Shown here: in pieces, positions 9,816 to 60,953 of the stretch
Layout of the letters: each line of letters starts with the position of its first letter
Position numbering within the stretch: the first letter of the stretch is position 1
NCBI GenBank assembly: GCA_903882875.1
Contig: CAIRYQ010000042.1
Span: 1 to 64,000, forward strand
From: an uncultured Spartobacteria bacterium
GTDB lineage: Bacteria; Verrucomicrobiota; Verrucomicrobiia; Chthoniobacterales; Chthoniobacteraceae
DNA: 64,000 nt
Direction: 5' to 3'
Notes under the pieces: model-generated
Database searches by the model: none
Told to the model about the DNA's origin: nothing
The model's input: only the letters and a program-made list of their open reading frames with translations
Made by a program: the position numbers and the translations under genes

Positions 9816-9887
9816 CGCAATAGGCGGTGAATCTTGCTCAAACTACGGTGAGCACGAATCCGCAAGCCGTGCGAAAGTCTGCGTGTG
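9816..9887. promoter_or_regulatory. Divergent intergenic region, AraC-type regulator / cbb3 operon
   Basis: These 72 bases must hold start signals for both the regulator (minus) and the oxidase operon (plus). I see no clear FNR box (TTGAT, four bases, ATCAA) and no convincing sigma-70 pair, so the position is inferred from gene arrangement only. Confidence 0.3.
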
Positions 9888-10103: not shown

Positions 10104-10270
10104 ATGTCCTCGCACTCACCATTTTCGTCGGCCTGCTGCTCGTCGGTTCATTCGTGATCCTTTGGATCGCATCGGCGTGCGACCCGCGCAGTTTCAACGA
10201 ACGGGATGCGCTCCTCCCCCTTGAAGCCGACGCCGATGACTCCTCTTCTTTGCCAAAAAACAAACCATGA
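10100..10270 (+). CDS. ccoS: cbb3 oxidase assembly protein CcoS
   Basis: Encodes 56 residues: one membrane helix (VLALTIFVGLLLVGSFVILW) followed by a short acidic tail with Asp-Pro-Arg-Ser-Phe. CcoS proteins have this single-helix, short-tail form, with the sequence Phe-Asp/Asn-Asp/Glu after the helix; here it reads SFNERDALLPLEAD. CcoS is needed for cofactor insertion into the catalytic subunit. It overlaps the preceding Cys-rich ORF and the following ccoNO by four bases each. ccoS usually lies at the end of such operons near ccoI; here it comes first. Confidence 0.75.
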   Translation: MNVLALTIFVGLLLVGSFVILWIASACDPRSFNERDALLPLEADADDSSSLPKNKP

Positions 10271-23604: not shown

Positions 23605-26600
23605 ATGTACCGCCACCTAGAAAAGAAGCTTCGCATTGGAATCGCGGCCGCCCTGGCCGCCTTTCTTGCAATGGCGGCGGTTGTGATCTGGCTTGGAGCG
23701 CGGTATCCTGCGGTGCGGGTTTCCGGGGTGATGGCGCTGCTGGGGATCGCGACGTACTGGGGATTGCTAGGTTATGCGCTGGTGCTGGTGAGGAGGGCCT
23801 CGCACGAAAGCAAGGAGGCGGAGCGCGGGATGCGGGATGCGGAGGAACTGACCGCGAGGATGATCGAGAGCAGCACGGATTGCATCGCGCTGCTCGATCC
23901 CGCGGGCCGCTGCAAGATGATCAATTCGGCGATGTGGCGCTGGATCGAGGAGGTCGGGCTGCGGCCGGTCGAGGGGATGCCGTGGGTGGAGGCGTGGAGC
24001 GGCGAGCCGCGCCGCGCCGCGGAAACCGTCATGGCCTCGGCTCTGGCGGGAAAGGTGGGGCGGTTCCAGGGGCTGTGCCATGTGCGATCCGGCGAGGGAC
24101 GGTGGTACGATGTCTCGGTCACGCCGGTGTGCGATTCACAGGGCCGGCCCGAGCAGTTGCTGGTGGTCGCGCACGATGTGACGGCGAGCCATTCGGCGGA
24201 GGAAAAATTCAATGTGCTATTCGACAATTCGGCGAACGCACACATCATCTTCGACGGGAGTCGGGTGCTGGCCTGCAACTCTTCGGCGGTGGAAATGCTC
24301 GGGTTTTCGACGAAGGCGGAGATGCTCGGAATGGATGTCGCGGCGCTTTCCCCGGAGCTGCAGCCGGACGGCTCGGACTCCGAAACGAAGCGGGCGGAGA
24401 TATGGGAGATTGTACGGCAGGTCGGCCATTTCCGCTACGAGTGGCAGGCGAGAAAGTTGAACGGGGAGGAGGTGCCTGTGGAAATCGCGATCACGCCGGT
24501 GTGGGCCGACGGGCGCGAGGTGATGCTCGCGGTGTGGACGGATCTCACGGAGCGCCGGCAGGCGAAGACGCTGCTCCAGGAGAGCGAGATGCGCTTCCAT
24601 GCCTTCATGGAGCACAGTCCCACGATTTGCTTCATCAAGGACGAAGAGGGCAGGATGCTTTTTGTGAACCGGGTGATGGCAAAGGCGTTCAGCGTTTCGG
24701 GCGAGGAAATGATCGGCAAGACGGACTTCGACTGGCTCCCGCCGGAGACGGCCAGGGCCATCATGGAGACAGACCGGAGCATCCTCGAAAACAACCGGGC
24801 CTCCAAGCAGGTCGAATTGATCTCGACTCCCGACGGGACGACGCATGAGTGGCTGGTGATGAAGTTCCCCATCGTGAGTCCGGACGGCCGGAAATTCCTC
24901 GGCGGAGTCGGCATGGACGTGCGTGATCAGCGCAGCGTCGAGCGCGCGCTGAAGCTCAGCGAGTCCACGTTCCGTGAACTTTTTCACGATGCTCCGGTGG
25001 CCTACCACGAGCTGGACACCGAGGGACGCATCGTCCGGGTGAACAAGACGGAACTCGCGCTGCTGGGCTACACGGCGGAGGAGATGGTCGGGCAGCATGT
25101 GTGGGAGTTTTGTGTGGAGCCGGTTGCGAAAGAGGCGGTCGCGGCGAAGCTCCACGGCGGCGGCAACATTGAGGAGGCGTTCCAGCGCCATTTTCTGCAC
25201 AAGGACGGAAGCAGGATTCCGGTGCTCATCCGCGACCGGCTGATCCGCGATGCGGCCGGGGCGATCTGCGGTATCCGGACTACAATGCAGGACATCAGCG
25301 ATCTGAAGCGGACGGAAAGCTCTCTGCGCGCCGCGGAGGAGAACTACCGGAAGATTTTCGAGAATGCGGTCGAGGGCATTTTCCAAATCAGCCCGCAGGG
25401 GCACTTCATCAATGCAAACCGCGCTCTGGCGGCCGTGCTGGGATACGCGTCGTCTGCGGAACTTCTCGCGGAGGTCAAGGACATCGGGGGGCAGATCTAC
25501 GTGCGGCCTGGGCGATGGGTGGAGTTTTGTGCCTCAATGGAGCGCAGCGACTCCGTCAACAATTTCGAGTGCGAAATGCGGTGCCGGAACGGCTCGGTGA
25601 TCCTGGTGTCGCAGTGCGCCAGGCCTGTGTGCGATCCTGACGGGAACGTGCTCCACTACGAGGGAACGATCGAAAACGTGACTGCGAGAAGGCAGGCCGA
25701 GGCGGCGCTCGCCGCGGCGAGGGATTCCGCGGTGGAGTCCGTGCGTCTGAAGACGGAGTTCCTCGCGAACATGAGCCACGAGATCCGCACGCCGATGAAC
25801 GGCATCATCGGCATGACGGGGCTGCTGCTCGATACGGAGCTCACGCCGCGCCAGCGCGACTTTGCGGACACGATCGTGGACAGCTCCGAGGCGCTGCTGG
25901 AGATCATCAACGACATTCTGGACTTCTCGAAAATCGAGGCCGGCATGCTCACGTTCGAGGAGATTGACTTCAACCTCAACGATGTCGCCGAGGGCGTCGT
26001 GGATCTATTCTCCGAACGCGCCCATTCAAAGGGCATCGAGCTGTCGCTCTTCATCGAGGAAGACGTGCCGGACGTGCTCACCGGCGATCCGGGGCGGCTG
26101 CGCCAGGTGATCTTGAACCTCGTGGGAAATGCGCTGAAATTCACCGCAAAAGGCGAGGTGCGTGTCGTTGTGCAGATGCACCAGGAATCCGCTGAGGCAC
26201 CCAAGGTGAGGTTCGAGATCATGGACACGGGCATTGGGATTTCAAAGGAGCAGCAGGGGCGGCTGTTCCAGCCGTTTGTTCAGGCGGACGGCTCGACCAC
26301 GCGGCGTTACGGGGGAACCGGGCTCGGGCTCGCGATCTGCCGCCGGCTGGTCACGCAGATGGGTGGCGAGGTGTGGATCGAAAGCGAGGTCGGTCAGGGA
26401 GCGCGTTTCTTTTTCACGGCGGTGTTCCGGAGGCCAGCGATCGCACCGGTCCGCTGTCCGCATGAGTTCCAAGGGCTGCGGATGCTCGTCGTCGAGCCCG
26501 ACGCCCGGTGCTCCAATGTGCTTGCGCGGATGATCGGAAACCGTGGCGCAAAGGTCGAGCGTGCCAGTGGGGCCGATGTGGCGATGAAAATCCTGCGCGA

Positions 26601-27693
26601 GAGCGGCGGAGGTGATCTGAAATTCGATGTGGTGATTTTTAATGCCGATGAACGCTGTGCAGGAGGCGCGGGTATCGCGCGCACAATCCGTGACGATCCC
26701 GGGCTGGCAGGCGTCCGGCTGGTGCGGATGGTCTCGATCAATCCCGGCGATGAATCCAAGTCCCTGGACGCAACCGCGGTGGACGGACAAATCGCCAAGC
26801 CGCTCAAGAGCCGGAGCGTCACGTCCTGCATCGAGAATGTGATGGAGTCTTTGCCGGGCGCGTCGTCCCGGATTGTGAGGCAGGCCGCGGTCAAGGGCGA
26901 ACCTTTCGGCGAGGCCGCCCTCGCTTCGTTGCGCGTCCTGGTGGCGGAGGACAGTGTGGTCAACCAGAAGGTCGTGCAGTTCCAGCTCCGGAAACTCGGG
27001 TGTCACATGGAAGCCGTGCTCGACGGAGAGGCGGCGCTGGAGGCAGTCCGCCAGAATTCGTACGACGTGATCCTGATGGATTGCCAGATGCCAAAGCTGG
27101 ATGGCTGGGAGACCACGCGCCGGATCCGCGAGATGGAAAGCGGCGGCGCCGAACGGACATGGATCATCGCGATGACCGCCCATTCGCTCGCCGGTGACCG
27201 GGAACGGTGCATCGAGGGAGGCATGGACGATTACCTGAGCAAGCCCGTGCGGTTTGCGGATCTCTCCAACGCTCTGGCGCAAAGCCCGGCTGCTGCGCGA
27301 GCCGTGCTGATGGACGCCGTCCGGTCTCCGGCCAATGTCGTCTGCCAGGACAAAATCAGCAGCTTCCGCCAGCTCGAGCAGGAGAGCGGCCAGCCGATCC
27401 TCGGCAGCGTGGTGGATCTTTTCATCGAACGCACACCGCCGATGTTCGCGGAGGTCAGGCGCGCATTGTCCAGCGGTGACACGGCGCTGATTTCCCGCGT
27501 CGCGCACACGATCAAGGGGAGCTGCAGCAACTTCGGCGCGCACCGCATGAGGGCCGCGTGCGAGCGGATCGAGGCTGCAGTGGCCGACGGCGAAAACAGC
27601 GTGAAGCTGGAGGAAATCCTCGACGAAATCGAACGCGAGTTTGGCTACGTCCGCATGGCGTTGCGCAACGAAATGGAGGCGAAATCCGCGTGA
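23605..27693 (+). CDS. Hybrid histidine kinase: 2 TM, five PAS, HisKA, HATPase, two REC, HPt
   Basis: Encodes 1362 residues. Two membrane helices lie within residues 10-62. Five PAS domains run from about 80 to 700 (starts near 85, 195, 320, 445 and 575). The H-box [15 protein letters not shown] gives His725; the N-box is near 840, the G1 box MDTGIGI near 874 and the G2 box GGTGLGLAI near 905. The first receiver (about 955-1075) has Asn1013 where the phospho-Asp should be and looks inactive. The second (about 1110-1230) has Asp1159 in [13 protein letters not shown]. The C-terminal HPt carries His1301 in [12 protein letters not shown]. Signal would run His725 to Asp1159 to His1301 and probably on to the regulator whose GTG start overlaps this stop. 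Confidence 0.93.
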
Positions 27694-28244
27694 AAATCCT
27701 GATCGCCGAGGACGACATGGTCTCCGCAAAAGTCCTCCAGATCGCTCTGGAAAGCAGCGGCCATACGGTCGTGACGACCGAGTGCGGTGAGACCGCATGG
27801 GAGGCATTCAATGCCGATCCTGTCCGCGTGATCGTGAGTGACTGGATGATGCCCGGCATGGACGGCCTGGAGTTCTGCCGCCAAGTGCGCGCGCGGCCGA
27901 AAACCGACTACACGTATTTCATCCTCCTCACGGCAAACCACACGGGGAGGGAAAATCTGCGCAAGGCGATGGACGCCGGCGTGGACGACTTTCTGCCGAA
28001 GCCGCTGGATCGCGAGGCCATCGCGATGCGCCTGCGCGTGGCCGAGCGGATCATCGAGTTCGCCACGCAGATCCGGCAGCTGAAGGAACTGCTGCCGATC
28101 TGCATGTATTGCAAAAAGATCCGCGACGACGAGAACTTCTGGCACGGCGTGGAGACGTACATCTCGCAGCAGACCGGCAGCAATTTCAGCCACGGCATCT
28201 GCCCTGAGTGCTTCGAGAAGCACGTCAAGTTCCGCCGACACTAG
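27690..28244 (+). CDS. Response regulator with Cys-rich C-terminal tail
   Basis: Encodes 184 residues from a GTG at 27690; GTGA overlaps the kinase stop by four bases. No ATG start gives a complete receiver. The receiver has the acidic pair at 8-9, phospho-acceptor Asp51 in [13 protein letters not shown], a Thr switch in ILLTANHTG and Lys in FLPKPLD. After about residue 120 there is a helix and then [20 protein letters not shown] and a [11 protein letters not shown] block. The two Cys-x-x-Cys pairs would suit one zinc. No DNA-binding domain is present, so output is through protein contact. It is the likely phosphate acceptor of the kinase's HPt domain. Confidence 0.88.
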
Positions 28245-28253
28245 CCGAGGAAT

Positions 28254-28287
28254 GGCAGACACCGCCGCTTGTCACCTGCCTCTTTTT
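28254..28287 (+). terminator. Candidate terminator of the kinase-regulator pair
   Basis: GGCAG (28254-28258) pairs with CTGCC (28276-28280), directly followed by TCTTTTT. The loop is 17 bases, longer than usual, but the stem-plus-T-run order and the position ten bases after the regulator stop are right. Confidence 0.4.
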
Positions 28288-28329
28288 GATCAGAACTACA
28301 TGGCAAATCACACCGCTCCATATCCTTTG

Positions 28330-30276
28330 TCACAAGGTTGGAGCGCGATAGAGGAAGGAATCGGAGCTTAGCAGCGATGCCGCCAGCGCCTTCATGCTGC
28401 CGCCGCTTTTTTCGTAGGCCTGGTCGGCCTCCCGGAGTGTTTTGGCGTCGCGGATGGTTTCGTTGCGGCCGAGGAAGAAACGGAAGGCGTAACGCACGAA
28501 CATTTCCTGCGAGCGCTTTGATTTTGTGAGGCGATGGATGAGTTCGACTGCATTAGTGACTTCGCCATCCACGGCCTTGTCGTCAATTTCCACGACGGCA
28601 CCGGTGGCGTTGATGGGGCGGTCCAGCTCCATCAGGCGGAAGCGGCCAAAGTGATCGTAATTCTCGAACGGCATCCCAAGCGGATTCATCTGGTAGTGGC
28701 ACTTCCAACAATAGGCCTTGGTGCGGACGCCTTCGAATCGTTCGTGCAGCGTCTTCTGTTTGTCCTCGGGCACGACGGCGCAGACGGAAATGGGAATATC
28801 CATGACCACTCCGCCGAGCAGGTGGTCGAGAATCCATTTTCCGCGGCGGACGGGGTCGTTGTCGAAGTTTCCTGAGTGCGCGACGAGCCAGGCGGGCTGC
28901 GTGAGGATGCCGGCGCGCTCGTCGGCGGGGAGGTCTATGAGGCCGTCACGCCACTTCCAATCGGGCGGCAGATTATACAAACGATGGCCGCGCGGCAGCT
29001 CGCCATTGCCATCGATGTAAGTCTGCGTCGTGGTGAGCAGGCGGCGCAGCACGTCCTTGTCTGCGCCGACGATTGTCTCGATCAGCCGCTGCGTGTCGCG
29101 GACGAGATTGTTGGCGTTGAAATGCACGTTGGCGGGCGGTTCCTTGAACACGTCCTTGGCCTTCCGGTAGTCGAAATATTCGTCGAAAAAATCGAGCACA
29201 CGACTGTTCGGCCATTTGCCGTCAAGCAGTGTCATTACCAGCGCCGAGACTTCCTCGCGGGTCGCCAGGTCGTATCCGCGCCGCGCGGCTTCGAGCGCGG
29301 GATGAGCCGCCGTGCTGAAGAGCGTGTGTTGCAGTGCGGTGAGGATCTCCGGCTTGGTCAGACGGCGGCGGCCATGCTCGTCGAGCGGGCCCGCGCCGAG
29401 TTCGAAGCGGTAGAGGGACTCGGGCATCAGCAGCGGGATGATCAATGCGGCACGCGCGGCTTGCAGGCGGCCATGCGCGGCGCTCACGTCTGCGTAGAAC
29501 TTGCCGATTCGTGCGAGTTCCTCATCGGTGGGAGCACGTTGCAGCACTTGTTGGAACTGCCAGTTCATCACCTGCCGGAACTCGTCGGGCGTCGGCACCT
29601 TTTCCGGATGCAGCAGCGGGAAAAATACGCATTGCGATCTCGCGTCCTTGGCCACGACCTTGCCATCGCGCAATTCGGTGCGTGTGCTGGCATCAATGAG
29701 CTGCTGCGCGTTGCGCAGGACGATTTCAGCCGACGGTTCGTCCACCGAGTAGAGCGTGCTGAAGTCGCTGATCTGCTGGCCGGGCAGGATCGAGAAAGGC
29801 TGGATGCCGGATGGATTTTTTGCGGCGTAGATCGCGGGCCGCTTGCGCCAGATGCGGACGAGCGTGGCGGGCGCGGGATGCGCGGGCGAATGGAACAGCG
29901 CCTCGTGTGAAATCCGGTTGGCGTAGTTTGGCAATTCGAGCCAGTTCACGACATGGTGTCCCTCGGCCCGCAGCGAGGCGGCGATCCACTCGGTGATCTG
30001 TTTTTTCTCCTCCGCGCCGGGCTGCGTCTTTTTCTTCGGCGGCATCTGGCCGAGCAGGAGTTGCTCGCGCACCGACGCCCAAATCTCCGGCGTGGTGTTT
30101 CTGAATGTCGTGATTCCCTCAAACGAAACGCCGCCCTTTTTTTCCGCCTTGTCATGGCAATCCACGCAATAGCGATCGAAGAACGGCCCCGGCGCGATTT
30201 CAGCCGCGGGCGCTCCACCGCAGCACGCCATGCTGAACGCGATGAGGAAGCGCAATGGATTTGCAGGACGTGTCAT
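28330..30276 (-). CDS. DUF1592/DUF1588/DUF1585 cytochrome-like exported protein
   Basis: Encodes 648 residues with a signal peptide ending near Ala-Pro-Ala-Ala-Glu (about residue 26). The haem site CVDCH is at 37-41 in FFDRYCVDCHDKAEKKGG, followed by the usual Gly-Gln-Met-Pro-Pro segment. DUF1592 runs from about 215 to 350. DUF1588 contains the second Cys-x-x-Cys-His, YCWKCHYQMNPLGMPFENYD, and DUF1585 has FVRYAFRFFLGRNE near the end. The protein has the end domains of the larger family member at 58516 but lacks the DUF1587/DUF1595 region in between. It is the last gene of a three-gene operon after the DUF1552 and caspase-FGE genes; the spacing is four bases. The substrate is unknown. Confidence 0.88.
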   Translation of the reverse strand: MTRPANPLRFLIAFSMACCGGAPAAEIAPGPFFDRYCVDCHDKAEKKGGVSFEGITTFRNTTPEIWASVREQLLLGQMPPKKKTQPGAEEKKQITEWIAASLRAEGHHVVNWLELPNYANRISHEALFHSPAHPAPATLVRIWRKRPAIYAAKNPSGIQPFSILPGQQISDFSTLYSVDEPSAEIVLRNAQQLIDASTRTELRDGKVVAKDARSQCVFFPLLHPEKVPTPDEFRQVMNWQFQQVLQRAPTDEELARIGKFYADVSAAHGRLQAARAALIIPLLMPESLYRFELGAGPLDEHGRRRLTKPEILTALQHTLFSTAAHPALEAARRGYDLATREEVSALVMTLLDGKWPNSRVLDFFDEYFDYRKAKDVFKEPPANVHFNANNLVRDTQRLIETIVGADKDVLRRLLTTTQTYIDGNGELPRGHRLYNLPPDWKWRDGLIDLPADERAGILTQPAWLVAHSGNFDNDPVRRGKWILDHLLGGVVMDIPISVCAVVPEDKQKTLHERFEGVRTKAYCWKCHYQMNPLGMPFENYDHFGRFRLMELDRPINATGAVVEIDDKAVDGEVTNAVELIHRLTKSKRSQEMFVRYAFRFFLGRNETIRDAKTLREADQAYEKSGGSMKALAASLLSSDSFLYRAPTL

Positions 30277-30280
30277 TGGC

Positions 30281-31870
30281 CTACTTCCTTTTCAAAATGA
30301 ACCGCAGCCCTAGATAATTCTCGGTCTGGTTTTCGCGCGCGAGGAAAGTGAACTGCCCGCGTGCCGCCGAACGGCAACTGGACGCGGTGCTGATCCAGCT
30401 TCCGCCTTTGCAGACCCAGCCGCTCCTCGCGTCGAATTTCTCCGGCGGCGTACGCTGCGCGTGATACGGCGTCGAGGTGAGTTCCGCCATGTTGCCGCAC
30501 ATGTCGTGCAGTCCCCACGGATTCGGCGGATAGCTGCCGACCAGCGCCATGTTCGCGACACCGTCGCTCCACGTCTTGTGCGCATAGGTGAAAAGGCCCG
30601 CCTGCCGGTCTCCCATGAATGGCGGAGTCTTCATCGTCTTGCCCACTTCGCCGACCGAGGTGCTCTCGCGCAGCGTGCGATCGGCGAAGTTGCCGTGCTT
30701 GCCGAGTTCCGAGCCATCGTTGCCGAAGTAATACGCCGTCGTCGTTCCCGCGCGCGCTGCGTATTCCCACTCGGTCTCGCTCGGCAGCATATACTGCCAG
30801 CCGGCGGGCGCTGTTTCGTTGAGCTTCGCGAGCAGCGTCGCCGGAAAATCCGCGCGGAATTTGTTCAACGGGTAAAGCCTGTGATCTCCCGTCGAAAGAT
30901 ACATCCCGGCCTGCTTCGTCAGCGCCTTGAGTTCGCTGCGCGTGAACTCGTATTTGCTCATCCAGAAGCCTTGTGGAATCGCGACCTCGACGGGGATATC
31001 ATCGTCGTCCCGCCCCGGCTCATCTGCCGGGCTGCCCATCGTAAATTTGCCCGGCGGGCACCAGCAGAAGACCATCCCCTCAGCGTTCACCCATTCGTCG
31101 CCAGCCTTGCTTCCCGCCTGAAAATTCGCGGGCGGCGAGATCGCCTGCGATGCCGGCGCCGCGAGATCCGCGAGATCGGTCAGCGTGGATTCCTGCGTCA
31201 GCGAGATGCCGTCGAGGATCGCAGCGAGTGGCTTCGGCGACATCAGATCGGCGGTCAGTTTTTTGGCCAATGGCGAGATGCCTTCGGTCGAAGGCGCGAT
31301 CACTTCGCCCATCGGCGCAGCGAAGATGACGCGGCTGTCCGCCGGAAGTTTAGCCGCCATTTTTGCCAAACCCGTCGGCGTAACCGCGGTGCGCGCGGGA
31401 TGACGGACGCATCCGTCCACAATCAAGATATTGCGCGCACTGCCGCTGTCGGTCACGAGCCGGTTCAGCAACTGCACGACTCCGGTCTGCGAGCCGTTCA
31501 CCGTGCTGGCGTGCGCGGGATTTCCGTCAATCGGCAGCAGCGAATTGTCCGCATTCGGATCGCCGTCATTCCGATTCGGCAACGCATAACCCGAAAAATA
31601 GATCAGCGCCGTTCCGCGCGTGGGTACCGTCCTCGCGAACGCATCAAACGCCGTCCGCATCTTTTCCGCGGTGAGATCTTCGAGCTGAGTCACCACGAAG
31701 CCACGCCTTTTCAGCGCATCGCCAATGGTGCGGATGTCATTCGCCGGAGTCACAAGCTCGGCTTTCGGATATTTGCCGTTGCCGATCAGCAAGGCATGAC
31801 GGTGCTCGCCACGAGCAACGCCGATGAGCGCGCCTGCGAGAAAAAACAAACAGACGACAAGCAGTCTCAC
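30281..31870 (-). CDS. Exported caspase-like domain fused to an FGE-sulfatase-type domain
   Basis: Encodes 529 residues. A signal peptide (RLLVVCLFFLAGALIGVARG) precedes a peptidase C14 domain: RHALLIGNGKYPKAELVTP, the strand ALIYFSGYA and the strand NILIVDGCVRHP. The caspase His of Ser-Gly-His-Gly is Tyr95 here; Cys154 is retained. From about 262 to 527 is an FGE/SUMF1-type domain (MVFCWCPPGKFTMGSP, LPSETEWEYAARAG, GLHDMCGNMAELT, CKGGSWIST). The first catalytic Cys of true formylglycine enzyme is replaced in GGSWIST. The caspase part is therefore probably not a classic protease. The gene overlaps the DUF1552 gene by four bases and lies four bases before the DUF1592 gene. Confidence 0.85.
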   Translation of the reverse strand: MRLLVVCLFFLAGALIGVARGEHRHALLIGNGKYPKAELVTPANDIRTIGDALKRRGFVVTQLEDLTAEKMRTAFDAFARTVPTRGTALIYFSGYALPNRNDGDPNADNSLLPIDGNPAHASTVNGSQTGVVQLLNRLVTDSGSARNILIVDGCVRHPARTAVTPTGLAKMAAKLPADSRVIFAAPMGEVIAPSTEGISPLAKKLTADLMSPKPLAAILDGISLTQESTLTDLADLAAPASQAISPPANFQAGSKAGDEWVNAEGMVFCWCPPGKFTMGSPADEPGRDDDDIPVEVAIPQGFWMSKYEFTRSELKALTKQAGMYLSTGDHRLYPLNKFRADFPATLLAKLNETAPAGWQYMLPSETEWEYAARAGTTTAYYFGNDGSELGKHGNFADRTLRESTSVGEVGKTMKTPPFMGDRQAGLFTYAHKTWSDGVANMALVGSYPPNPWGLHDMCGNMAELTSTPYHAQRTPPEKFDARSGWVCKGGSWISTASSCRSAARGQFTFLARENQTENYLGLRFILKRK

Positions 31871-33255
31871 GCGAGCAACTCACCGATTGGCCCGGCCTGT
31901 TCGATCGCGCCTTTCAATTCCGGATCCTGCTGGCCGAAGTGATTCACCTGCACGCCCGCGGCGTGGAGCAGCGTGGTGTAAAAGCCGGCAACTGTGTGAT
32001 GCCCTTTCGCGCCATACTTGGGCACGTTCACGAAGCGATCTCCCGCCTTCAGCTTCCCGCCGAGATTGCCCAGCATGAGCATCGGCCATTCGTAGCACGT
32101 CGAGTGGTGGTTCTCCGCGCTGTCGCTGAGATACAGGATGACCGTGTTGTCCATCATTGTGCCATTGCCCTCGGGAACTGCCTCCAGCAGGTCCACGAGC
32201 TTCGCGATCAGATCCATGTGAAACTGGCGCGTCTTGAGTTCCATCTTTTCCGCGCCTTCCACCGAGCGGTGTCCGATCTCGTGCTTGTCCACGGTGATGC
32301 CGAGGCCCTTGAACGTGACCTCGAAGTTCGGGCTGCCCGCGCCCGATGCGAGCGTGACCGTGTTGGTGAGCCCTGTGATCAGCGCCGTCGCCGCCATTTC
32401 AAAGTGCGCTTCGAGCCGCTTGATCTCCACCTCCGATTTGTAGATCTCGGCGCGAAGGGCGGGGATCCGGTGCGGATCCACGTCGGTCAGATTCGACTGA
32501 CGTTTTGCGATGGTCGCGAAGGCATCGGCGTAGCGCTCCAGCTTTTCCGCGTCCTCGTGCGGCAACTGACTTTTCAGCCGCCTGATGTCGCCAGCCATGA
32601 AGTCGAGCACCATGGACTGAGCGCCCACTTCCGCCTTCGTGTTGCCGCCGAGGATCCTGCCGAAAAGCATGTCATACGCGAGCGCCGGATCCTGATAGTG
32701 CGGCACCTTTTGATCCGGCCCGGAAGCCGAGCAGCAGTAGATGATGCTCGCCTTCGGATCCCGCGCGATGCCGAGCGCGACGTGCCGGAAGATGCCGGGA
32801 TTCGCGCGTGCCAATGCGGCATCTATCGTGATGTCCTTCGCACCGGCGCGCGCCGAATACGCACCCAGCGCGCCGAAGTCATTGGAATGCCCGCCGCCGC
32901 AAACGCGTCCCGAGAGCCCCTGCAAAATCGTGAGGCGTTTGCGATGCCGGTCCAAAGGTGCGAGCGCTTCGGGCAGGCTGACTCCCGGAGCGGACAGCCG
33001 CTGTTCGATCAGTGTTTCCGCAGCGTTCTGCTTGGACACTCCCGCATTGCGCATGTTCGGCATCTCCGGGCGGACGATGCCGCCGGGCTGCGCTTGCACC
33101 GCGGGGAACCCGTTGCCCTCGATCACAAAAACAAACCGCATCGGCTTCACGCCACGGCTTTCCGCATCGAGGCGGGAAACCAACGGTGCGAGCAACGGCG
33201 CACTCACGCCGAGAGACACGGCCTTGAGAAAGGAGCGGCGGTCGAGGTGGTTCAT
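31867..33255 (-). CDS. DUF1552 family protein, Tat-exported
   Basis: Encodes 462 residues. A twin-arginine leader is visible (LDRRSFLKAVSLGVSAPLLA). Family blocks are MRFVFVIEGNGFPAV, RLTILQGLSGRVCGGGHSND, ASIIYCCSASGPDQ, and the C-terminal NTVILYLSDSAENHHSTCYE and KGHHTVAGFYTTLLHAAG. DUF1552 proteins usually travel with DUF1592-type cytochromes, as here, and share the DUF1501-like fold; their reaction is not established. It is first in a three-gene operon and its stop overlaps the caspase-FGE start (ATGA). Confidence 0.88.
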   Translation of the reverse strand: MNHLDRRSFLKAVSLGVSAPLLAPLVSRLDAESRGVKPMRFVFVIEGNGFPAVQAQPGGIVRPEMPNMRNAGVSKQNAAETLIEQRLSAPGVSLPEALAPLDRHRKRLTILQGLSGRVCGGGHSNDFGALGAYSARAGAKDITIDAALARANPGIFRHVALGIARDPKASIIYCCSASGPDQKVPHYQDPALAYDMLFGRILGGNTKAEVGAQSMVLDFMAGDIRRLKSQLPHEDAEKLERYADAFATIAKRQSNLTDVDPHRIPALRAEIYKSEVEIKRLEAHFEMAATALITGLTNTVTLASGAGSPNFEVTFKGLGITVDKHEIGHRSVEGAEKMELKTRQFHMDLIAKLVDLLEAVPEGNGTMMDNTVILYLSDSAENHHSTCYEWPMLMLGNLGGKLKAGDRFVNVPKYGAKGHHTVAGFYTTLLHAAGVQVNHFGQQDPELKGAIEQAGPIGELLA

Positions 33256-33378
33256 AGAGAATGTAACTTTGCGAAGATCAAGATACGGCAGAAGCTGTCC
33301 ATGCTTATTCGGATTGTTGTCAAAAGTGATTTTTCTTCGTTATCGCATCCTAGATTGCAGCCGTATTGATTTCGGGAT

Positions 33379-34080
33379 TTACTTACTTTGCTTCTCCTGC
33401 GGGGGCGTGGAGAGCGGCGGTGCAGAGTCATTGAGCCGGTTCACGACTGTAATCTTCACCGCCGACCGAATCTCTTGCTGACCACGCATGCTCCCGAAAA
33501 ATTCGTATCCCGCCCGCAGTTCATATTTGCCGGGAGCCAGCATATCTTTCGGCTTGAACGGCCAGTGGTAAATGCCGCCGCCTTGGATCGGCCAGACCAG
33601 CCTGCCTCCTTCAAACTCGACGGTGTTCTCGAACACGCACGTCGCACCCGCTGCCAGTTCAACCTGTGGCACTGGGACGGGAGCCGGGGCATTCTTATCG
33701 GGAGTCGGGATGGCTGCGGGAACTTCCGGGCGGGCTGTTTCCCCCTTTGCGGGATCGATCAGCACATTGCTCCCGCCGCCCCATTCGACGAGCCTGCCGG
33801 ATTCGTAGGCCATCAGCAGCGCCCCCGGCTGCCGGCGCCAATCGCTGACGGTAATGGGCTTTTGCGACACATTCTGGACATGCAATTTCAACACGATGGC
33901 CAACGGCTTGTTGTCGTGAGTGTGCAATGGCCATGTGATCTGCTTGACCTCAAGAGCGACACGCATCCCGTTTGCCGGTTCACTCCAGGGCAGGCTGGCT
34001 TCGGCTTGCGCGGCGGGAGGGGCCGCCGGAGCAGCATAGGTGGCGATTAGCGTGAGCATGGCACAGGCAATGGGTTTCAT
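33379..34080 (-). CDS. Exported protein of unknown function
   Basis: Encodes 233 residues with a signal peptide (MKPIACAMLTLIATYAAPAAP). The mature part is mainly beta: a strand-rich core (IVLKLHVQNVSQKPITVSDW), a Pro-rich loop (IPTPDKNAPAPVPVPQ) and a second sheet ending in GKYELRAGYEF. An Ig-like fold is likely. It may serve the same exported system as its neighbours, but no family is recognised. It precedes the DUF1552 operon by 123 bases in the same direction, so they may share a transcript. Confidence 0.6.
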   Translation of the reverse strand: MKPIACAMLTLIATYAAPAAPPAAQAEASLPWSEPANGMRVALEVKQITWPLHTHDNKPLAIVLKLHVQNVSQKPITVSDWRRQPGALLMAYESGRLVEWGGGSNVLIDPAKGETARPEVPAAIPTPDKNAPAPVPVPQVELAAGATCVFENTVEFEGGRLVWPIQGGGIYHWPFKPKDMLAPGKYELRAGYEFFGSMRGQQEIRSAVKITVVNRLNDSAPPLSTPPQEKQSK

Positions 34081-34132
34081 GAGTGGTTGCTTATGTGTCT
34101 ATCCACCTTTGGATGGATGAAAAGTGCGCAAG

Positions 34133-35014
34133 TTACCTCGGTGAGGGCATAACTTTCACCTCGGGAAGCTTCTCTCCGCGAGTCCATGCGCCGATGAGCT
34201 TCAAACACTCCGCGGGCTGCTCGTGGCCGAAGCCGTGCATGACAATGTGGATGAGGTCGAGCTGTGCGGCTTTAGCCTGCTGCTCAAGCAACTGAATCAT
34301 GGGGACGACGAATAGCGTGCGCTGGCCCTGCTGGCCCGGGTCTTTGTCCTGATCGCCAAACAGCAGGAGGAAGCGGTGGCCTTTCAACTCGGGAGCCTGG
34401 AGGGATGCGGGGTTCAGCGCGAAGCCGACTCCGCCTTCCAGCAGCACGAATGCGGTGAAGTGGCTCAGGATGAATTCGTCCTTGGCCGCGGCGAGGGCGC
34501 TGGTGGCGTGCGCGCCATTCGAGAACCCGCCCAAGGTGCTGCGCCCGGTAGCGATGTTCGGAACGGTCTGTGCGAGCTTTTCCAGCATCACGCGGTAGGT
34601 GTTGCCGAGGATGGCTGCGTCGTTGGAATGGATCAGATTGCCGAGTTTCACCGGGATGCCGGGCAGCACGGGAGGCTTGGCTTTTGCATCCTTGAAAAGC
34701 GGGAGGCTCACCGCGATGAAGTCGCGCGGGCCGACGATCCGCCGGGCGAAAGAGGCGTCGCCGCCGGTGCCGCCACTGCCGCCGTTGATGAAGACAAAGA
34801 GCGGGAATGCACTGTCTGCGGAGTAGTTCTCCGGGAGCTGTGCCGAGAGCATGGGGACGGTTTTCTTCCCGGTCTGCTGCTCGAAATAGGTGGCGGGCAG
34901 ATCGGGAAATTCGAGCGTGAGCTTTGCATTCGGCGCGAGCTTCGCCGGGTCCGCGCGCAGGGCTGCGAGTGGGGCAAGAAGCAGTGCGCTGAGAATTGTG
35001 AGGATGGGTCTCAT
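34133..35014 (-). CDS. Exported alpha/beta hydrolase (esterase-like)
   Basis: Encodes 293 residues from the ATG at 35014, where a clean signal peptide begins (MRPILTILSALLLAPLAALRA). An oxyanion-hole strand FVFINGGSGGTGG precedes the nucleophile elbow GFSNG (Ser165), with a likely acid Asp221 in LLLFGDQDKD and base His264 in HGFGHEQP. Order and spacing fit a complete catalytic triad. It resembles feruloyl or acetyl xylan esterase-like PVC proteins, but the substrate is not evident. It lies between two other exported proteins in a minus-strand run. Confidence 0.7.
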   Translation of the reverse strand: MRPILTILSALLLAPLAALRADPAKLAPNAKLTLEFPDLPATYFEQQTGKKTVPMLSAQLPENYSADSAFPLFVFINGGSGGTGGDASFARRIVGPRDFIAVSLPLFKDAKAKPPVLPGIPVKLGNLIHSNDAAILGNTYRVMLEKLAQTVPNIATGRSTLGGFSNGAHATSALAAAKDEFILSHFTAFVLLEGGVGFALNPASLQAPELKGHRFLLLFGDQDKDPGQQGQRTLFVVPMIQLLEQQAKAAQLDLIHIVMHGFGHEQPAECLKLIGAWTRGEKLPEVKVMPSPR

Positions 35015-35090
35015 GGCGGAGCGGATAGGATTTTCCTGCAATGACGATGCAGGCGCTCTCGAAGAGTTTGCGGGCAGCGGCTAGCGGCGG

Positions 35091-36248
35091 CTACAACTGC
35101 GCGTAGAGTATCTCCAGCGTGAGCACCGAGTAGGTCGTCACGAGCACGCCGTTGTTTTCCTTCCATCGCGGCGTCTCGTTCAGCCAGGAGCCGTCCTGCT
35201 GCTGGAGCTTCATGAGCCGCAGCGCGAGGTCGCGGCGCCAGTCGGAATTTTTGCCGCCCGCGCCGATGTCGCTGACGCCCGCGGCGGTGAGGCCCTTGGC
35301 CATGAGGTGCAGGTAGTAAAAGTAGCCCGCTTTTTCGAGGCCGGGGTTTTCCTCAAGCGTGTAGTTTTTGTTCAGCCACTCGACGGCGGCGATCACGCGC
35401 GGGTCGTCCTTTTTCACATCGGCGTAGATGAAGCTGAGCAGGCCCGCGTAGCTCATCGTGCCGGAACTGCGCAGCGCCTTGCCGCCGCCTTCGAGCGTGA
35501 CTTCGCCCGCGTTGCTGTAGCCGGGGTAATAGACGAAGCCGCCTTTGTTCGCCGCGTCGCCGCTTGCCCACGGTTGTTTGTTCGAGGGCAGGTTCTGGCA
35601 GCGGCTGACAAATTCGATCGCAGCGTTCCAGTTGAGATCCTTTGTGCCGGGGCGATCGGCGACGAGGTGCTTCGTCGCGCGCAACGCTTCGAGCGCGATG
35701 ACCGTGTTGTCGAGGTCGGGATGCCCGCGCTTCGCGCTCGTGCCGACGCTGCCGTACGCGATGCCGCCGTCCGTCTCCGGCTTTGCCATGCCGCTCGCCT
35801 GCTGGCCGACGACGTAGGCGCGCGCCTTCAGCAATGTGTCGAGGTCCTTCGGCTCATTCGCGCCGTCGAGCGCGAGCAGGCAGACGGATGTGTTGTAGTT
35901 CGCGAGGCCGGATTCCTTGTTGTAGATGCCGCCGTCCGGCTGCGTGAAGCCGCGCAGATACGCGTAGCCCTTCGTGACAAAATCCGCACTGGCAAAACGC
36001 CGCGTGGGCTCGCGCTGAAACGCGACTAGCGGCAGCGCACTCAGCGCGGGATGCAGCGTGTCCTTGCCGAAGCTGCCGTCCGCATTCTGCTGCGCGCGCA
36101 GCCATGCGAGGCCGCGTTCGAGCGCGTCGCGGACTTCGTTGCGGAAGGAGAGATTTTTTTCGTCCCTCGGGAGCGGCTCGTTGGCGGCGCGCGTCCATGC
36201 GGCGGCTGCAAGCGTGATCGTGGTGGCGAGGAAATGGCGGCGTTTCAT
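35091..36248 (-). CDS. Prenyltransferase/squalene-cyclase-fold exported protein (A)
   Basis: Encodes 385 residues from the ATG at 36248; the ATG sits in an ATGA overlap with the upstream YdjY gene. A Tat-like leader KRRHFLATTITLAAAAW is present. Repeats with a QxxDGSF/GGxxY signature mark the alpha-alpha toroid: RAQQNADGSFGKDTLHPAL, FTQPDGGIYNKESG, SNKQPWASGDAANKGGFVYY and KLQQQDGSWLNETP. No DxDD or aspartate-rich catalytic motif of true terpene cyclases is evident, so a binding or scaffold role is more likely than cyclisation. A relative lies at 38261 in the same run. Confidence 0.75.
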   Translation of the reverse strand: MKRRHFLATTITLAAAAWTRAANEPLPRDEKNLSFRNEVRDALERGLAWLRAQQNADGSFGKDTLHPALSALPLVAFQREPTRRFASADFVTKGYAYLRGFTQPDGGIYNKESGLANYNTSVCLLALDGANEPKDLDTLLKARAYVVGQQASGMAKPETDGGIAYGSVGTSAKRGHPDLDNTVIALEALRATKHLVADRPGTKDLNWNAAIEFVSRCQNLPSNKQPWASGDAANKGGFVYYPGYSNAGEVTLEGGGKALRSSGTMSYAGLLSFIYADVKKDDPRVIAAVEWLNKNYTLEENPGLEKAGYFYYLHLMAKGLTAAGVSDIGAGGKNSDWRRDLALRLMKLQQQDGSWLNETPRWKENNGVLVTTYSVLTLEILYAQL

Positions 36249-36982
36249 TTGGCGGGTTTTTCTGCGGGTTCGAGTTTGATGGAGAATTCCACGGGCGTTC
36301 CTTTTGGCGGCACGGCCTCTTTTTTGACGAACCAAATTTGATCGTCATTCGCACCGGTGCGCGGGTTGTTGATGAGCGCGCCGGGATACGTGACCATCGC
36401 GGCGAACGTTCCATCCGCCTGAGCGATGAAACGGTTCTCGTAAAAATAGCTGCCAGTGTAGAGCCAAGGGCCGTCCTCGGCATCCATGATCTTCACGGTT
36501 TTTTTTGGCGTGAAAAATTTCCGCACGATCCAGCGTTCCACCGGCGAAGTCTGTTCCTTCCCGCTCTTGTCCGTCCATTTTACGCTGAGGAAAATGCGGT
36601 CGCCCGTGAGCTTCGGCGCGTGCGCGAGATACTCGGCGTCAATGCGCGGCGGTTCCTTGCCTGCTTGCTTCTGGATCATGCCGCGCGCGCCGAGCAGCAG
36701 CATCGCCATGTGGACATCCTGCGGCGCGGCCTCGCTCGTGAGCAGCGTTTCATGCACCGGGCCCTGCGGGGAGACGAGCAGGTATTCGAGCAGCCCGTCG
36801 TCCATCTGCACCTTTGCTGGGAAAGTCACCGTGGATGTGTTTTTATCGAGCCTCACGGTGCCGACATTGAAAATCCCCGGCGCGATTTCCTTCGGCGAGG
36901 AAAATTCCGGCTGCGGCTGTGCGCGAAGTGATGCGGGATTTGCGAGGAGCAGGACGGCGGCGATGGCAATTCGGGCGGGCAT
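36245..36982 (-). CDS. YdjY-domain exported protein
   Basis: Encodes 245 residues with a signal peptide (MPARIAIAAVLLLANPASLRA). Residues about 40-100 match the YdjY domain: a strand block containing STVTFPAKVQMDDGLLEYLL, then HETLLTSEAAPQDVHMAML. A Trp-containing sheet follows (YTGSYFYENRF), and a Lys/Pro-rich tail ends the protein. YdjY-domain proteins occur in PVC secreted gene clusters; their function is unknown. It overlaps the prenyltransferase-fold gene by four bases, which points to a shared pathway or complex. Confidence 0.75.
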   Translation of the reverse strand: MPARIAIAAVLLLANPASLRAQPQPEFSSPKEIAPGIFNVGTVRLDKNTSTVTFPAKVQMDDGLLEYLLVSPQGPVHETLLTSEAAPQDVHMAMLLLGARGMIQKQAGKEPPRIDAEYLAHAPKLTGDRIFLSVKWTDKSGKEQTSPVERWIVRKFFTPKKTVKIMDAEDGPWLYTGSYFYENRFIAQADGTFAAMVTYPGALINNPRTGANDDQIWFVKKEAVPPKGTPVEFSIKLEPAEKPAK

Positions 36983-37012
36983 GATTCGGGAACGAGGAAA
37001 CTAAGCCGGTTT

Positions 37013-38140
37013 TCAGTGGCGGAGCAACATCGGTTCCGCCCATGTGCCGCTGCCCGCGCCGCCCTCGATGCGGAGCACGAGGCTGTCCGTGCCCTGCACC
37101 GCGCAGCGAAGCACCGCGGGCGGATCCCCGGCGCCCAGCGGCGCGCTGTGACCCGCGAGCTTGCCATCGGAGTACACAGAGAAGGTGAGCTTTTGTCCCG
37201 CGGGCGTCTCCCTGCCCGCCGCGACAATCGCAGAAAATGTGCCTGCGCCCGGCGGCGGCTTCCACCACACGGTTGCACTCACCGCGCATTCGAAGCCGGC
37301 GCTTACCGGCGAAATTCCGAGCTTCAGTTCGCCGCCGTCGAGCGCGCGGTTTGCGGCGAAGCTCTTTGCTGCATCGCCGTTCGGCGCCGGGTCTATGCGC
37401 GCGGGCTTGAAGCCGTCCATCGGCACCATGCGCGATGCACCGGCGCGGATTTCGACAAGTTCGGAGACGGGAATGCGGAGGCCGTTGTAGAGCGGATGGC
37501 GCAGCGTGACGTCCGCGCCGTCTCCGGTGATCACGTCGAGCGCCGGATAGATGCTGCCGTCGATCGTCACGACATCGAACGCCGCGGGCTGTGGCAGGAA
37601 ATCGCGCAGGACGAGCGCGTGCATTTCTCCCGCCGCAAAAGTGCGCGGGCCGAAAATTGGATTGAGGATTTTCGCCGATGCCGCCTCCGCGCTGCGCACG
37701 GTGCCCTCGAAAAAATCCCCGCCTTCGAGCAGTGCGCCCGCTTTTCCCCGCGGTGCTTGCAACGCGAGCGCGGGCGGCAGCGGGCGGTAGATCGCCCACG
37801 CGATTTCCTTCGACGGGATCGAGATTCGTTTCGCGGGAAATTTTACGACCGCATCGTTGAGCGACGAAAATGCGCCTGCGATGCGTCCGCCGTTCACGAG
37901 CAGCACGCCGGGCTGGAGATCCGGATTCGGTGCGGCAAACCGCGCACGTAGGATCGCCTGGAGCGTCAGCTTCAGCGTCGGCGAACCTCGGACGGTGATG
38001 CCATGTTCGAGTGTGACCTCGCCCTCGTGCAGCACGCCGTCCGCGGTGATCACCGTGCCCGCGCGAAGCATCGGCGTGCAGGGCGCGAATGCCGCTGCGA
38101 ACGCGAGGACGGTGCTGACTTTGGATGCGATGAATCTCAT
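37013..38140 (-). CDS. Exported beta-rich protein with possible NPCBM-like C-terminal domain
   Basis: Encodes 375 residues with a signal peptide (about 1-27). The N-terminal part has two related beta modules (GTVITADGVLHEGEVTLEHG and AGALLEGGDFFEGTVRS), the second of which opens a run with an IDGSIYPALDVITGDG strand. The C-terminal 120 residues (CAVSATVWWK to LRIEGGAGSGTWAEPMLL) resemble the NPCBM carbohydrate-binding fold. The protein is probably surface or periplasmic. It lies 30 bases upstream of the YdjY gene, suggesting one operon of 37013, 36245 and 35091. Confidence 0.6.
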   Translation of the reverse strand: MRFIASKVSTVLAFAAAFAPCTPMLRAGTVITADGVLHEGEVTLEHGITVRGSPTLKLTLQAILRARFAAPNPDLQPGVLLVNGGRIAGAFSSLNDAVVKFPAKRISIPSKEIAWAIYRPLPPALALQAPRGKAGALLEGGDFFEGTVRSAEAASAKILNPIFGPRTFAAGEMHALVLRDFLPQPAAFDVVTIDGSIYPALDVITGDGADVTLRHPLYNGLRIPVSELVEIRAGASRMVPMDGFKPARIDPAPNGDAAKSFAANRALDGGELKLGISPVSAGFECAVSATVWWKPPPGAGTFSAIVAAGRETPAGQKLTFSVYSDGKLAGHSAPLGAGDPPAVLRCAVQGTDSLVLRIEGGAGSGTWAEPMLLRH

Positions 38141-38260
38141 GCAGCCGCTCCATTCTTGATCCCAACCATCATCTTCGTCTTACCCGGTCGGACGGTGTGC
38201 CTCACGGTGCGGGGAGGGGATTCGGATTCAGAAAAAGATGAGGATTGAGGCACTGCCGCA

Positions 38261-39295
38261 TCACCGCTGGTAGAGCGGGATGTAATGCCACGGCATCGCG
38301 AGGATCGTCGTGTAGCATGCGGTGGTGTAGATGTTGCCGATCTCGTGGTCGTCCCACGAGCACATCTCGCCGTTGCGCTGCACGCGCGGGAGCAGTTCGG
38401 CCTTCATGATGTCGTACCATCGCCGCCAGGTTTCGCCGCCGATCATGTATTGCGCGGGCGCGGCGTAGTTCGCGCCGTAGGTCCAGAAGCGGCGTTCGCT
38501 GTGGTGTTGAAAAAGAAATTCGCTGCCCGGCTGCACGAGCGGGTCGTCGTAGTGGCCGCAGACTTGCAGCGAGTAGATCGCCGCCGCCGTCCGTGAAAAT
38601 CCGGTGCCCCTTTGACCGGCCTGATAAACGAAGCCGCCGCCGGGATCGGAGCAGCGGCGCACGTAGTCCACCGCGTCGTCAATCGTCTTCTGCGGAACGT
38701 CGAGGCCCGCGTTTTTCGCCGCACGCAGCGCGACGACCTGGAGCACCGTCACGGAAATGTCCGCATCGCCGGGCCGGGGCTGGTAGCGCCAGCCTCCCTT
38801 GTTGCTGCCTCGGTCGCTCTGCGTGGTGACGATCAGGCGGATGGCGCGCTGCAGTTTCTCCCGGATGATCGGGCTGCGCGACTGGCCGTACAGTTCGCCG
38901 AGCGCGATGGTGGCGATGCCGTGGTTGTACATGTACTGCCCGCCGGCCACGCCGCGGTACTGGCCGTCCGCGCCGATGCTATCGAGGAGGAAATCGAGGC
39001 CGGCCTTCACCGGCTTCGCATACTCACCCTCGTCCGGGAGGTTGCCCGTCGCCATGAATGCGAGCAGCACGTAGCCCGTGATCGCCACGGGATGAATTGC
39101 GCGGCGCGAGTCGCTCTCATTCCACGAGCCGTTCACATTTTGCTTCGATGCGAGCCATCGCAGCGCACCGCGCAGGATGTCCTCGGTGTTCGCGTTCACG
39201 GTCACCGCATCCTCCGCGGCAGGTTCCGCCGCGCTTGCGGGGAAATGCGCGTGCAAGCATAGCGCGGCGGACGCACAGAGGCTTCGGAGGAACAT
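38261..39295 (-). CDS. Prenyltransferase/squalene-cyclase-fold exported protein (B)
   Basis: Encodes 344 residues with a signal peptide (LRSLCASAALCLHAHFPASA). Toroid repeats are ALRWLASKQNVNGSWNESD, FLLDSIGADGQYRGVAGG, NKGGWRYQPRPGDADISV and RRCSDPGGGFVYQAG. As in the relative at 35091, no classic terpene-cyclase acid motif is seen. The GDADISVTVLQ element is the usual closing repeat of this PVC family. It stands before the 37013-35091 operon with a 120-base gap, so a separate promoter is possible. Confidence 0.78.
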   Translation of the reverse strand: MFLRSLCASAALCLHAHFPASAAEPAAEDAVTVNANTEDILRGALRWLASKQNVNGSWNESDSRRAIHPVAITGYVLLAFMATGNLPDEGEYAKPVKAGLDFLLDSIGADGQYRGVAGGQYMYNHGIATIALGELYGQSRSPIIREKLQRAIRLIVTTQSDRGSNKGGWRYQPRPGDADISVTVLQVVALRAAKNAGLDVPQKTIDDAVDYVRRCSDPGGGFVYQAGQRGTGFSRTAAAIYSLQVCGHYDDPLVQPGSEFLFQHHSERRFWTYGANYAAPAQYMIGGETWRRWYDIMKAELLPRVQRNGEMCSWDDHEIGNIYTTACYTTILAMPWHYIPLYQR

Positions 39296-39344
39296 GCGGC
39301 AAGACTACACGGCGGCAGCGCGCGGGCCAGCCCCAATGCCGCGA

Positions 39345-40445
39345 TTATTGAATCCGGATGAAATGCCCGAGGTCGTCGAAGATGAAGACCAGTCCTCCGG
39401 GCTGCGCCACGGTGATCACGCCGCCGCTTGCGGATGAGCCGCCGCCGGATGTCCCCGGGATGTTTCCAAATCCGAGCGCAGGAAGATACGGCCCGAGATC
39501 CGTGCCGGAGTAGCCTGTGTCATGTCCGGTGTCGTCCAGTCCAAAGGTCTTCACATTTCCAAAGAGCGCGATCGCGGTCACCGGCTCGTTGTCGCCGCCG
39601 CCGATCCGCACGCGCGAGAGTTTTTCAATCGAGATCTCGCCGCCGCCGATCACGATGATGATGGCCGTCACGTCCCCGGTGGTTTCGATGATGTCCCCGG
39701 TGCGGATGGTGTCGCCATTCTGCGCCGGCTTCTTGTTCACGAGGACGATGCCATTCGTCTTGAGCGTGCCGATTGCGCCGAAGTCCAGCCCTTCCTGCGC
39801 GGCGAGTGCCGCGGCGAGGTGGGTCTGATCGAGCTTCACACTCCAGTTGCCGGCGAGCAGCGGCGAGTTCCTGAAGAGCGCGCGCAGACTGATCCGCCGC
39901 GGCCTCGGAATTTGCGTCGCATTCACGGAGAAGCGCACCTGCTGCCCGGCGGTGACGACGGTTTCCCGGCCGAGCAGATCATTTTTCAGGACGATTGCAC
40001 AGGTGCCCTCGAGCACCGTGAGCTTCACAATTCCGTTCACGATTTCAAAGAGGATGGTGGTGCCGGTGATGGCGGCGGTCACCGCGCTGGTCTGAATCTT
40101 CGCGCCGCCTGCGCCCTTCGGCACCTGGAGCAAAACGGAGCCTTTCGAGAGCGATATTTCGCGTGTGCCGCTGCTCACTGCGAAATGCGAGTTTGCCCCG
40201 AGGCGCGTGATCGTCTGGTCGGCGAAGAGCAGTTCGGCCCGCGAATCAATCCCGGTGCGCACGGCGTTCCCCGGCTCCACGAGTTCGTTCACCGTTGCGG
40301 GCCGCGGCGGCTTGTCCGGGCCCACGGTTTTCACATCGTTGATGATGTGCGTGATCCTGGCCCCGGTGAGCGGCGCGGCATGAGCCGCGGGCGATGCAAG
40401 CCCGGTCAGGACAGCGAGGACAAAAAGCAGGATCGGCCTTTTCAT
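39345..40445 (-). CDS. FecR-domain exported protein
   Basis: Encodes 366 residues with a signal peptide (MKRPILLFVLAVLTGLASPAAHA). The FecR core lies at about 45-155: ELVEPGNAVRTGIDSRAELL, SLSKGSVLLQVPKGAG, and AAITGTTILFEI, followed by LTVLEGTCAI. A second half repeats the pattern (ENGDTIRTGDIIETT-like NGDTIRTGDIIETTGD, then KLSRVRIGGG). The end is Gly/Ser-rich. In this type the FecR domain is free-standing, without an anti-sigma helix, so a structural or surface role is more likely than iron signalling. It heads the long minus-strand run of exported proteins. Confidence 0.8.
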   Translation of the reverse strand: MKRPILLFVLAVLTGLASPAAHAAPLTGARITHIINDVKTVGPDKPPRPATVNELVEPGNAVRTGIDSRAELLFADQTITRLGANSHFAVSSGTREISLSKGSVLLQVPKGAGGAKIQTSAVTAAITGTTILFEIVNGIVKLTVLEGTCAIVLKNDLLGRETVVTAGQQVRFSVNATQIPRPRRISLRALFRNSPLLAGNWSVKLDQTHLAAALAAQEGLDFGAIGTLKTNGIVLVNKKPAQNGDTIRTGDIIETTGDVTAIIIVIGGGEISIEKLSRVRIGGGDNEPVTAIALFGNVKTFGLDDTGHDTGYSGTDLGPYLPALGFGNIPGTSGGGSSASGGVITVAQPGGLVFIFDDLGHFIRIQ

Positions 40446-60894: not shown

Positions 60895-60953
60895 ATGCAC
60901 ACCGGTAGCCTGCGGAAGCCGCGCGCTCAAGCGCCGTGCGGGGTAGCGTCAAT

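Follow-up and report, generated by a model that had tools for sequence, protein, structure and literature searches.

A caspase-FGE fusion without a catalytic dyad in a three-gene DUF1552/DUF1592 cassette of Verrucomicrobiota and Planctomycetota

An uncultured Spartobacteria bacterium encodes a protein in which a caspase-like domain is joined to a domain of the formylglycine-generating enzyme (FGE) type, and its gene lies between those for a DUF1552 protein and a diheme cytochrome of the PSCyt kind. Fusions of this family recur in the same context in two phyla, and the His-Cys dyad is absent from every one of them. We consider that the fusion probably does not cut proteins and instead serves for binding or as a scaffold, as one subunit of an exported module that also comprises the DUF1552 and PSCyt proteins. 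The non-proteolytic reading is based on the absence of the dyad in 20 of 20 fusions, purifying selection, gene linkage, co-divergence of the three genes, the caspase fold and the special sub-types of the two partners. The window, meaning the whole stretch of DNA analysed, comprises 64,000 nt (assembly GCA_903882875.1, contig CAIRYQ010000042.1, positions 1-64,000).

Pfam searches place a Peptidase_C14 domain at residues 24-213 of the fusion (E 1.2e-15) and an FGE-sulfatase domain at residues 270-524 (E 4.9e-27; PF03781, 95.6 bits against a cut-off of 23.3), and these are its only domains above the Pfam cut-off. The protein is the sole PF00656 match in the 5.78-Mb assembly. A hydrophobic N-terminal signal, MRLLVVCLFFLAGALIGVARG, was recognised by eye, with the caspase domain beginning directly behind it, and is consistent with the export predicted in a first-pass annotation of this DNA. 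That annotation also held the gene to be translationally linked to both neighbours, as is borne out by a 4-nt stop/start overlap with the DUF1552 gene and a gap of four bases, the length originally given, before the DUF1592 gene (Table 1), although the overlap reads GTGA and not ATGA. Its description of the locus as a DUF1552/DUF1592 operon holds for the linkage, but both partners represent a distinct sub-type rather than the ordinary one.

Table 1. Coordinates of the cassette genes and their junctions in the window
Feature	Position	Strand	Details
DUF1552 (HXXSHH) partner, distinct clade	31867..33255	minus	motif HEIGHR and SDSAENHH; N-terminal RRSFLK
Overlap (GTGA) of DUF1552 gene end and fusion GTG start, 4 nt	31867..31870	minus	sequence
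Caspase-FGE fusion gene	31870..30281	minus	529 aa; GTG start; ORF list
4-base gap between fusion stop and DUF1592 start	30277..30280	minus	sequence
Diheme PSCyt protein (DUF1592, DUF1588, DUF1585)	28330..30276	minus	CVDCH at 37, CWKCH at 523; without DUF1587 (PSD3)

Where Ser-Gly-His-Gly is expected, the window fusion reads YFSG-Y95-A, and the cysteine is kept in IVDG-C154-VRH; both features had been described correctly at the outset. The protein therefore has Tyr95/Cys154 in place of the His-Cys dyad of an active orthocaspase peptidase. With a p20-type domain, no dyad and no p10 domain (the last judged from Pfam only), it has the features of a pseudo-orthocaspase, and its caspase half is a probable pseudo-caspase as judged from sequence. 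Alignment of 20 cassette fusions showed that none retains His and Cys together. The family falls into three clades: that of the window (the window, L026, L027, L079, L028, L033 and L029), that of L030 (L030, L031a, L032, L094, L095 and L097) and a third (L031b, L080, L081, L092, L093, L096 and L100). The pair is Y/C in the window and five relatives of its clade, with H/A in L079, so that the Cys154 position is retained in six of seven members. It is Q/P in L030, L031a and L032, Q/A in L094, A/A in L095 and H/P in L097. Third-clade pairs are Y/G (L031b), Y/A (L092), F/A (L080), L/C (L081 and L093), L/A (L096) and K/L (L100).

Both residues are present in 55 of 59 control caspase domains from other loci of the two phyla (one has Arg for Cys, and three are unaligned at one or both dyad columns), a contrast with 0 of 20 that is not a count of independent events, as the cassette members are related. 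The controls, mostly the best-scoring matches of their genomes, lean towards intact. According to the part of a published survey drawn on here (PMC3501461), the dyad is intact in only 64% of Planctomycetes caspase homologues, and Tyr is the commonest substitute for His. Genome G375 encodes three caspase-FGE-like genes in a row over ~8 kb (L078a-c, contig C18), all with an intact His-Cys pair and without DUF1552, DUF1592 or other PSCyt neighbours. The occurrence of H/A within the Y/C clade and of H/P within the Q clade implies that the dyad was lost several times or that His was regained. Several independent losses are the simpler account, and they point to release from catalysis with the fold conserved.

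In an AlphaFold model built from nine sequences, pLDDT is mostly 54-94 for the caspase half and often <50 for the FGE half, which is poorly predicted. The modelled caspase half matches the MALT1 paracaspase (Z 21.9, 198 residues, 2.9 A), and this match and the Pfam hit (Peptidase_C14) both identify a caspase fold. In the model, Tyr95 comes after strand 87-93 and Cys154 after strand 146-152, where the dyad residues belong. Comparison of the window with L026 gives a dN of about 0.13 and a dS of 0.68-0.99 for the caspase half (dN/dS about 0.13-0.2), and a dN of 0.08 for the FGE half. Purifying selection acts on the dead caspase domain, somewhat less strongly than on the FGE half. For the near-identical pair L026 and L027, dN = dS = 0.013 in the caspase half, from changes too few to weigh much.

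Sequence alignment pairs Asp45 and Asp152 of the window fusion with D365 and D462 of MALT1, which we take to be the residues that bind the P1 Arg. Two acidic residues of a P1-Arg pocket are thus represented by alignment, with a third acidic residue unplaced. All 13 fusions of the window's and L030 clades have Asp45, and 12 of the 13 have Asp152; in the third clade, every sequence that can be read at the Asp45 position has another residue there. These residues could instead be structural or inherited.

Profile searches covered 387 Verrucomicrobiota and 392 Planctomycetota genomes and the genomes in which the loci themselves lie. Together, the searches, the relatives and the GTDB genomes yielded 20 fusions of the cassette family in 13 Verrucomicrobiota and Planctomycetota genomes. 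Homologues in the same context occur in 12 genomes besides that of the window, so the arrangement is far above chance; the recurrence of the gene order in other PVC genomes, which the first-pass annotation had made a test of its proposal, was thus found. Identity to the window fusion is 80% for L026 and L027, ~58% for L028 and L033, 45% for L029 and 33-36% for L030-L032. A special-sub-type DUF1552 and/or DUF1592 gene adjoins 18 of the 20 fusions, and the contig ends on the expected partner side in the other two (L081 and L094). The order is DUF1552-fusion-DUF1592 in the window's clade, DUF1592-DUF1552-fusion in the L030 clade and fusion-DUF1592-DUF1552 in L080, L096 and L031b. Five of 392 Planctomycetota genomes carry the fusion (G523, G593, G677, G749 and G878), and among the 387 sampled Verrucomicrobiota genomes it occurs only in that of the window; the cassette spans two phyla yet is uncommon. 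The three genes co-diverge, with pairwise distances of fusion, DUF1552 and DUF1592 correlated across 15 cassettes (Mantel r 0.90-0.96, 0 of 5000 permutations). Bare DUF1552/DUF1592 pairs of the cassette sub-type also exist, with no FGE or caspase gene (L159 and L161-L174), so that the pair can do without the fusion.

None of the genes at 33379-40445, upstream of the cassette, recurs at the eight relatives' loci examined, and a promoter and terminator scan of 28100-34200 gave counts near those of shuffled sequence and was uninformative. Convergent with the cassette is a gene for a hybrid histidine kinase of 1362 aa (window 23605-27693) with several PAS domains, a receiver and an Hpt domain, overlapped and followed by a response-regulator ORF (27558-28244). 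The L029 fusion ORF (about 9670-10277) extends ~200 residues beyond the FGE-like domain, an extension that the other members lack. L027 and L028 are titled Klebsiella pneumoniae and Akkermansia muciniphila, but their cassettes are 58-80% identical to this Verrucomicrobiota one, and these metagenome bins have probably been mislabelled.

Both partners differ from the ordinary members of their families. The window's genome has >30 DUF1552 matches, and in a tree a branch with 100/100 support separates the cassette DUF1552 proteins from 30 other DUF1552 proteins of that genome. All 19 cassette-type DUF1552 proteins have HxxGHx or, in L029, HxxAHx, not HxxSHH, and most have an SD[SA]AExHH motif. The window's copy (HEIGHR) lacks canonical HxxSHH and still matches the Pfam profile at 134.6 bits. 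Its AlphaFold model (pLDDT only 62) best matches arylsulfatase A (Z 13.4, 235 residues, 3.8 A), and all 50 structural matches listed belong to the sulfatase/alkaline phosphatase superfamily (Foldseek E about 0.05), which is suggestive of that fold. The sulfatase motif (C/S)xPxR is absent from the cassette DUF1552 partners, except for SLPRR in L033, and the DUF1552 profile found no match among PDB sequences. One DUF1552 gene, in L035 (3288-4578; G000:C84 about 59940-60760), is broken into pieces in overlapping reading frames, one of them interrupted by a TGA; either a frameshift in this copy or a mistake in the assembly may explain this.

The cassette DUF1592 proteins have two CxxCH sites and lack the DUF1587 domain of canonical PSCyt proteins; the absence was recorded for the window cassette, L026, L028, L030 and L032. 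DUF1587 is present in ordinary copies in L034, in L027 (6822-10028) and at window 58516-60930. The last, away from the cassette, is a canonical PSCyt protein with PSCyt1, DUF1587, DUF1595, DUF1592, DUF1588 and DUF1585.

The FGE-like domain of the window fusion reads GGSWI-S494-TASS-C499. Ser occupies the first of the two catalytic positions and Cys the second, so the domain lacks the complete pair of Cu(I)-binding Cys of a SUMF1-type formylglycine-generating enzyme. The loss of the first Cys had been noted originally; it is real but nothing special, being shared by 43 of 48 related PVC FGE-like domains (both Cys in 5, the second only in 27, the first only in none). The original view that the fusion joins two pseudoenzymes is sustained, as probable, for the caspase half with its lost dyad, but not for the FGE half, because PvdO, a Cys-less protein of the FGE fold, can have another activity. 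Stand-alone FGE-like proteins occupy the same cassette slot in G910 (L098 and L099). In the window's own genome, stand-alone FGE-like genes adjoin ordinary DUF1552/DUF1592 genes and, as identified by eye, genes of the DUF1501 type (L034 5829-6626, L036 3363-4187 and L035 2036-3217), and PSCyt systems thus seem to be accompanied repeatedly by FGE-like proteins. The FGE-only slot and these FGE genes beside ordinary partners imply that what stays constant is the FGE-like half, and that the caspase fold was added or can be lost.

We propose that the three gene products belong to a single exported module, located in the periplasm or on the cell surface. The fusion would act there together with a diheme PSCyt protein and a DUF1552 protein of specialised type, whose fold is probably that of the sulfatase/alkaline phosphatase superfamily. 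The caspase fold would be retained as a recognition or assembly surface, its cutting dyad gone, and in the window's clade it could perhaps provide a basic-peptide pocket that does not cut. The FGE-like half, of C-type-lectin fold, would be the constant part contacting partners or ligand. From these patterns we infer that the proteins form a physical complex, that a ligand or peptide is bound and that the cytochrome transfers electrons, as well as the exact role of the fusion, including that of an adaptor for the cytochrome system, one reading offered in the first-pass annotation. Some thiol chemistry is possible given that Cys154 is kept in most of the window's clade. More tentatively, an exported complex of a cytochrome and a sulfatase-fold protein may have recruited a caspase fold that lost its protease dyad in all lineages, leaving a subunit with a structural or peptide-binding part in a machine linked to redox chemistry or polysaccharides. 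If true, the recruited fold would have a use unrelated to proteolysis or cell death.

The chief rival, which we judge unlikely, assigns the activity to the FGE-like half. This would be an active periplasmic oxidoreductase resembling PvdO, without the Cu-binding Cys pair, that passes electrons to the diheme DUF1592 protein, the dead caspase domain serving only to dock it. The best PDB sequence match of the whole fusion is indeed PvdO (5hha, E 6.8e-13), and the two CxxCH sites of the DUF1592 partner would suit such a role, as would the constancy of the FGE-like half within the third subunit. The NCBIfam PvdO model, named dihydropyoverdine dehydrogenase, also hits the fusion (E 5e-20), but the 71.7 bits are far under its cut-off of 500 bits. 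No cofactor site was identified in the FGE-like half, and both phyla have many FGE-like domains, most of them uncharacterised. It is decidedly improbable that the caspase half has kept peptidase activity in the window's clade by means of an atypical dyad, either Tyr/Cys or another His reaching Cys154. The first-pass annotation had called for a search for such a His, and H23, H25, H120 and H157 each vary among the Cys-keeping members, none being common to all; on this conservation test we rejected an intact dyad formed through another His. L079, of the same clade, has H/A, and the other clades mostly lack the Cys too. The persistence of Cys154, the retained acidic S1 pair and the placement of H157 three residues from Cys154 would each favour a peptidase.

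Still less credible is a part in a caspase/FGS-type conflict or defence system, as an effector decoy or a DGR-diversified binder, although FGS domains and inactive enzyme domains serve as effectors in such systems (PMC7159879). NTPase, MoxR, vWA and reverse transcriptase partners are all missing from the cassette; the fusion is predicted to be exported, and its FGE half shows conservation instead of hypervariability. Assignment to a defence system was rejected, PADLOC having given only a weak caspase match (E 3.3e-5). Assignment as a DGR variable protein or target was also rejected, since no direct repeat of at least 40 bases occurs in window 24000-40000, the 16 kb around the gene. A last reading, in which the gene is what decay has left of a caspase-FGE protease and no longer serves any purpose, is hardly tenable. 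Decay would fit the different dyad losses in different lineages and the patchy distribution among Planctomycetota, but it accords poorly with open frames throughout the fusions and with their tight, conserved linkage to and co-divergence with their neighbours, and it is largely refuted by the selection on the caspase half.

The fusion and its cassette have parallels among known systems. In animals, c-FLIP-like pseudo-caspases keep the caspase fold as an adaptor after loss of the dyad; this is analogy only, the protein here being bacterial, apparently exported and FGE-linked, with no homologous partners. Bacterial caspase homologue-FGE-sulfatase fusions combine the same two domains in one protein, and 33 of 671 prokaryotic caspase homologues carry FGE (PMC3501461, in the part drawn on here); unlike the present case, that part of the survey describes no DUF1552/DUF1592 cassette and no clade wholly without the dyad. 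Pseudo-orthocaspases likewise have a p20-type fold without the His-Cys dyad, often with His replaced by Tyr (PMC6426788; SyOC, PMC7889975), and for one of them a knockout phenotype has been described in Synechocystis (PMC7889975). Of those known, 90% are alphaproteobacterial or cyanobacterial, with YS, YA, FS, YG and others; the study in question (PMC6426788) does not mention Planctomycetes or Verrucomicrobia and links no pseudo-orthocaspase to PSCyt genes. The cassette fusions differ in having Y/C, Q/P, L/C, K/L and other pairs, a predicted export signal and a fused FGE domain.

We found no report of the three-gene caspase-FGE/DUF1552/DUF1592 cassette in the open-access literature, which is weak evidence of absence, and no paper there that treats DUF1552 and DUF1592 together. 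Caspase-FGE fusions and degenerate Planctomycetes dyads (both from the consulted part of PMC3501461), pseudo-orthocaspases and PSCyt genes with unexplained neighbours are already known. The family is a clean case in which to ask what use a dead caspase fold has in bacteria, with the dyad absent from every member found and selection visible. PSCyt and DUF1552 genes are strongly multiplied in Planctomycetota and Verrucomicrobiota, their function unknown, and pairs of PSCyt3 with a neighbour gene likewise place a DUF1588/DUF1592/DUF1585 cytochrome beside a family of unknown function (PMC5615132). The cassette differs from these pairs in its cytochrome without DUF1587, its DUF1552 protein with HxxGHx and its third, caspase-FGE subunit, and this sub-type with a fixed third subunit offers a compact three-gene handle on PSCyt/DUF1552 systems.
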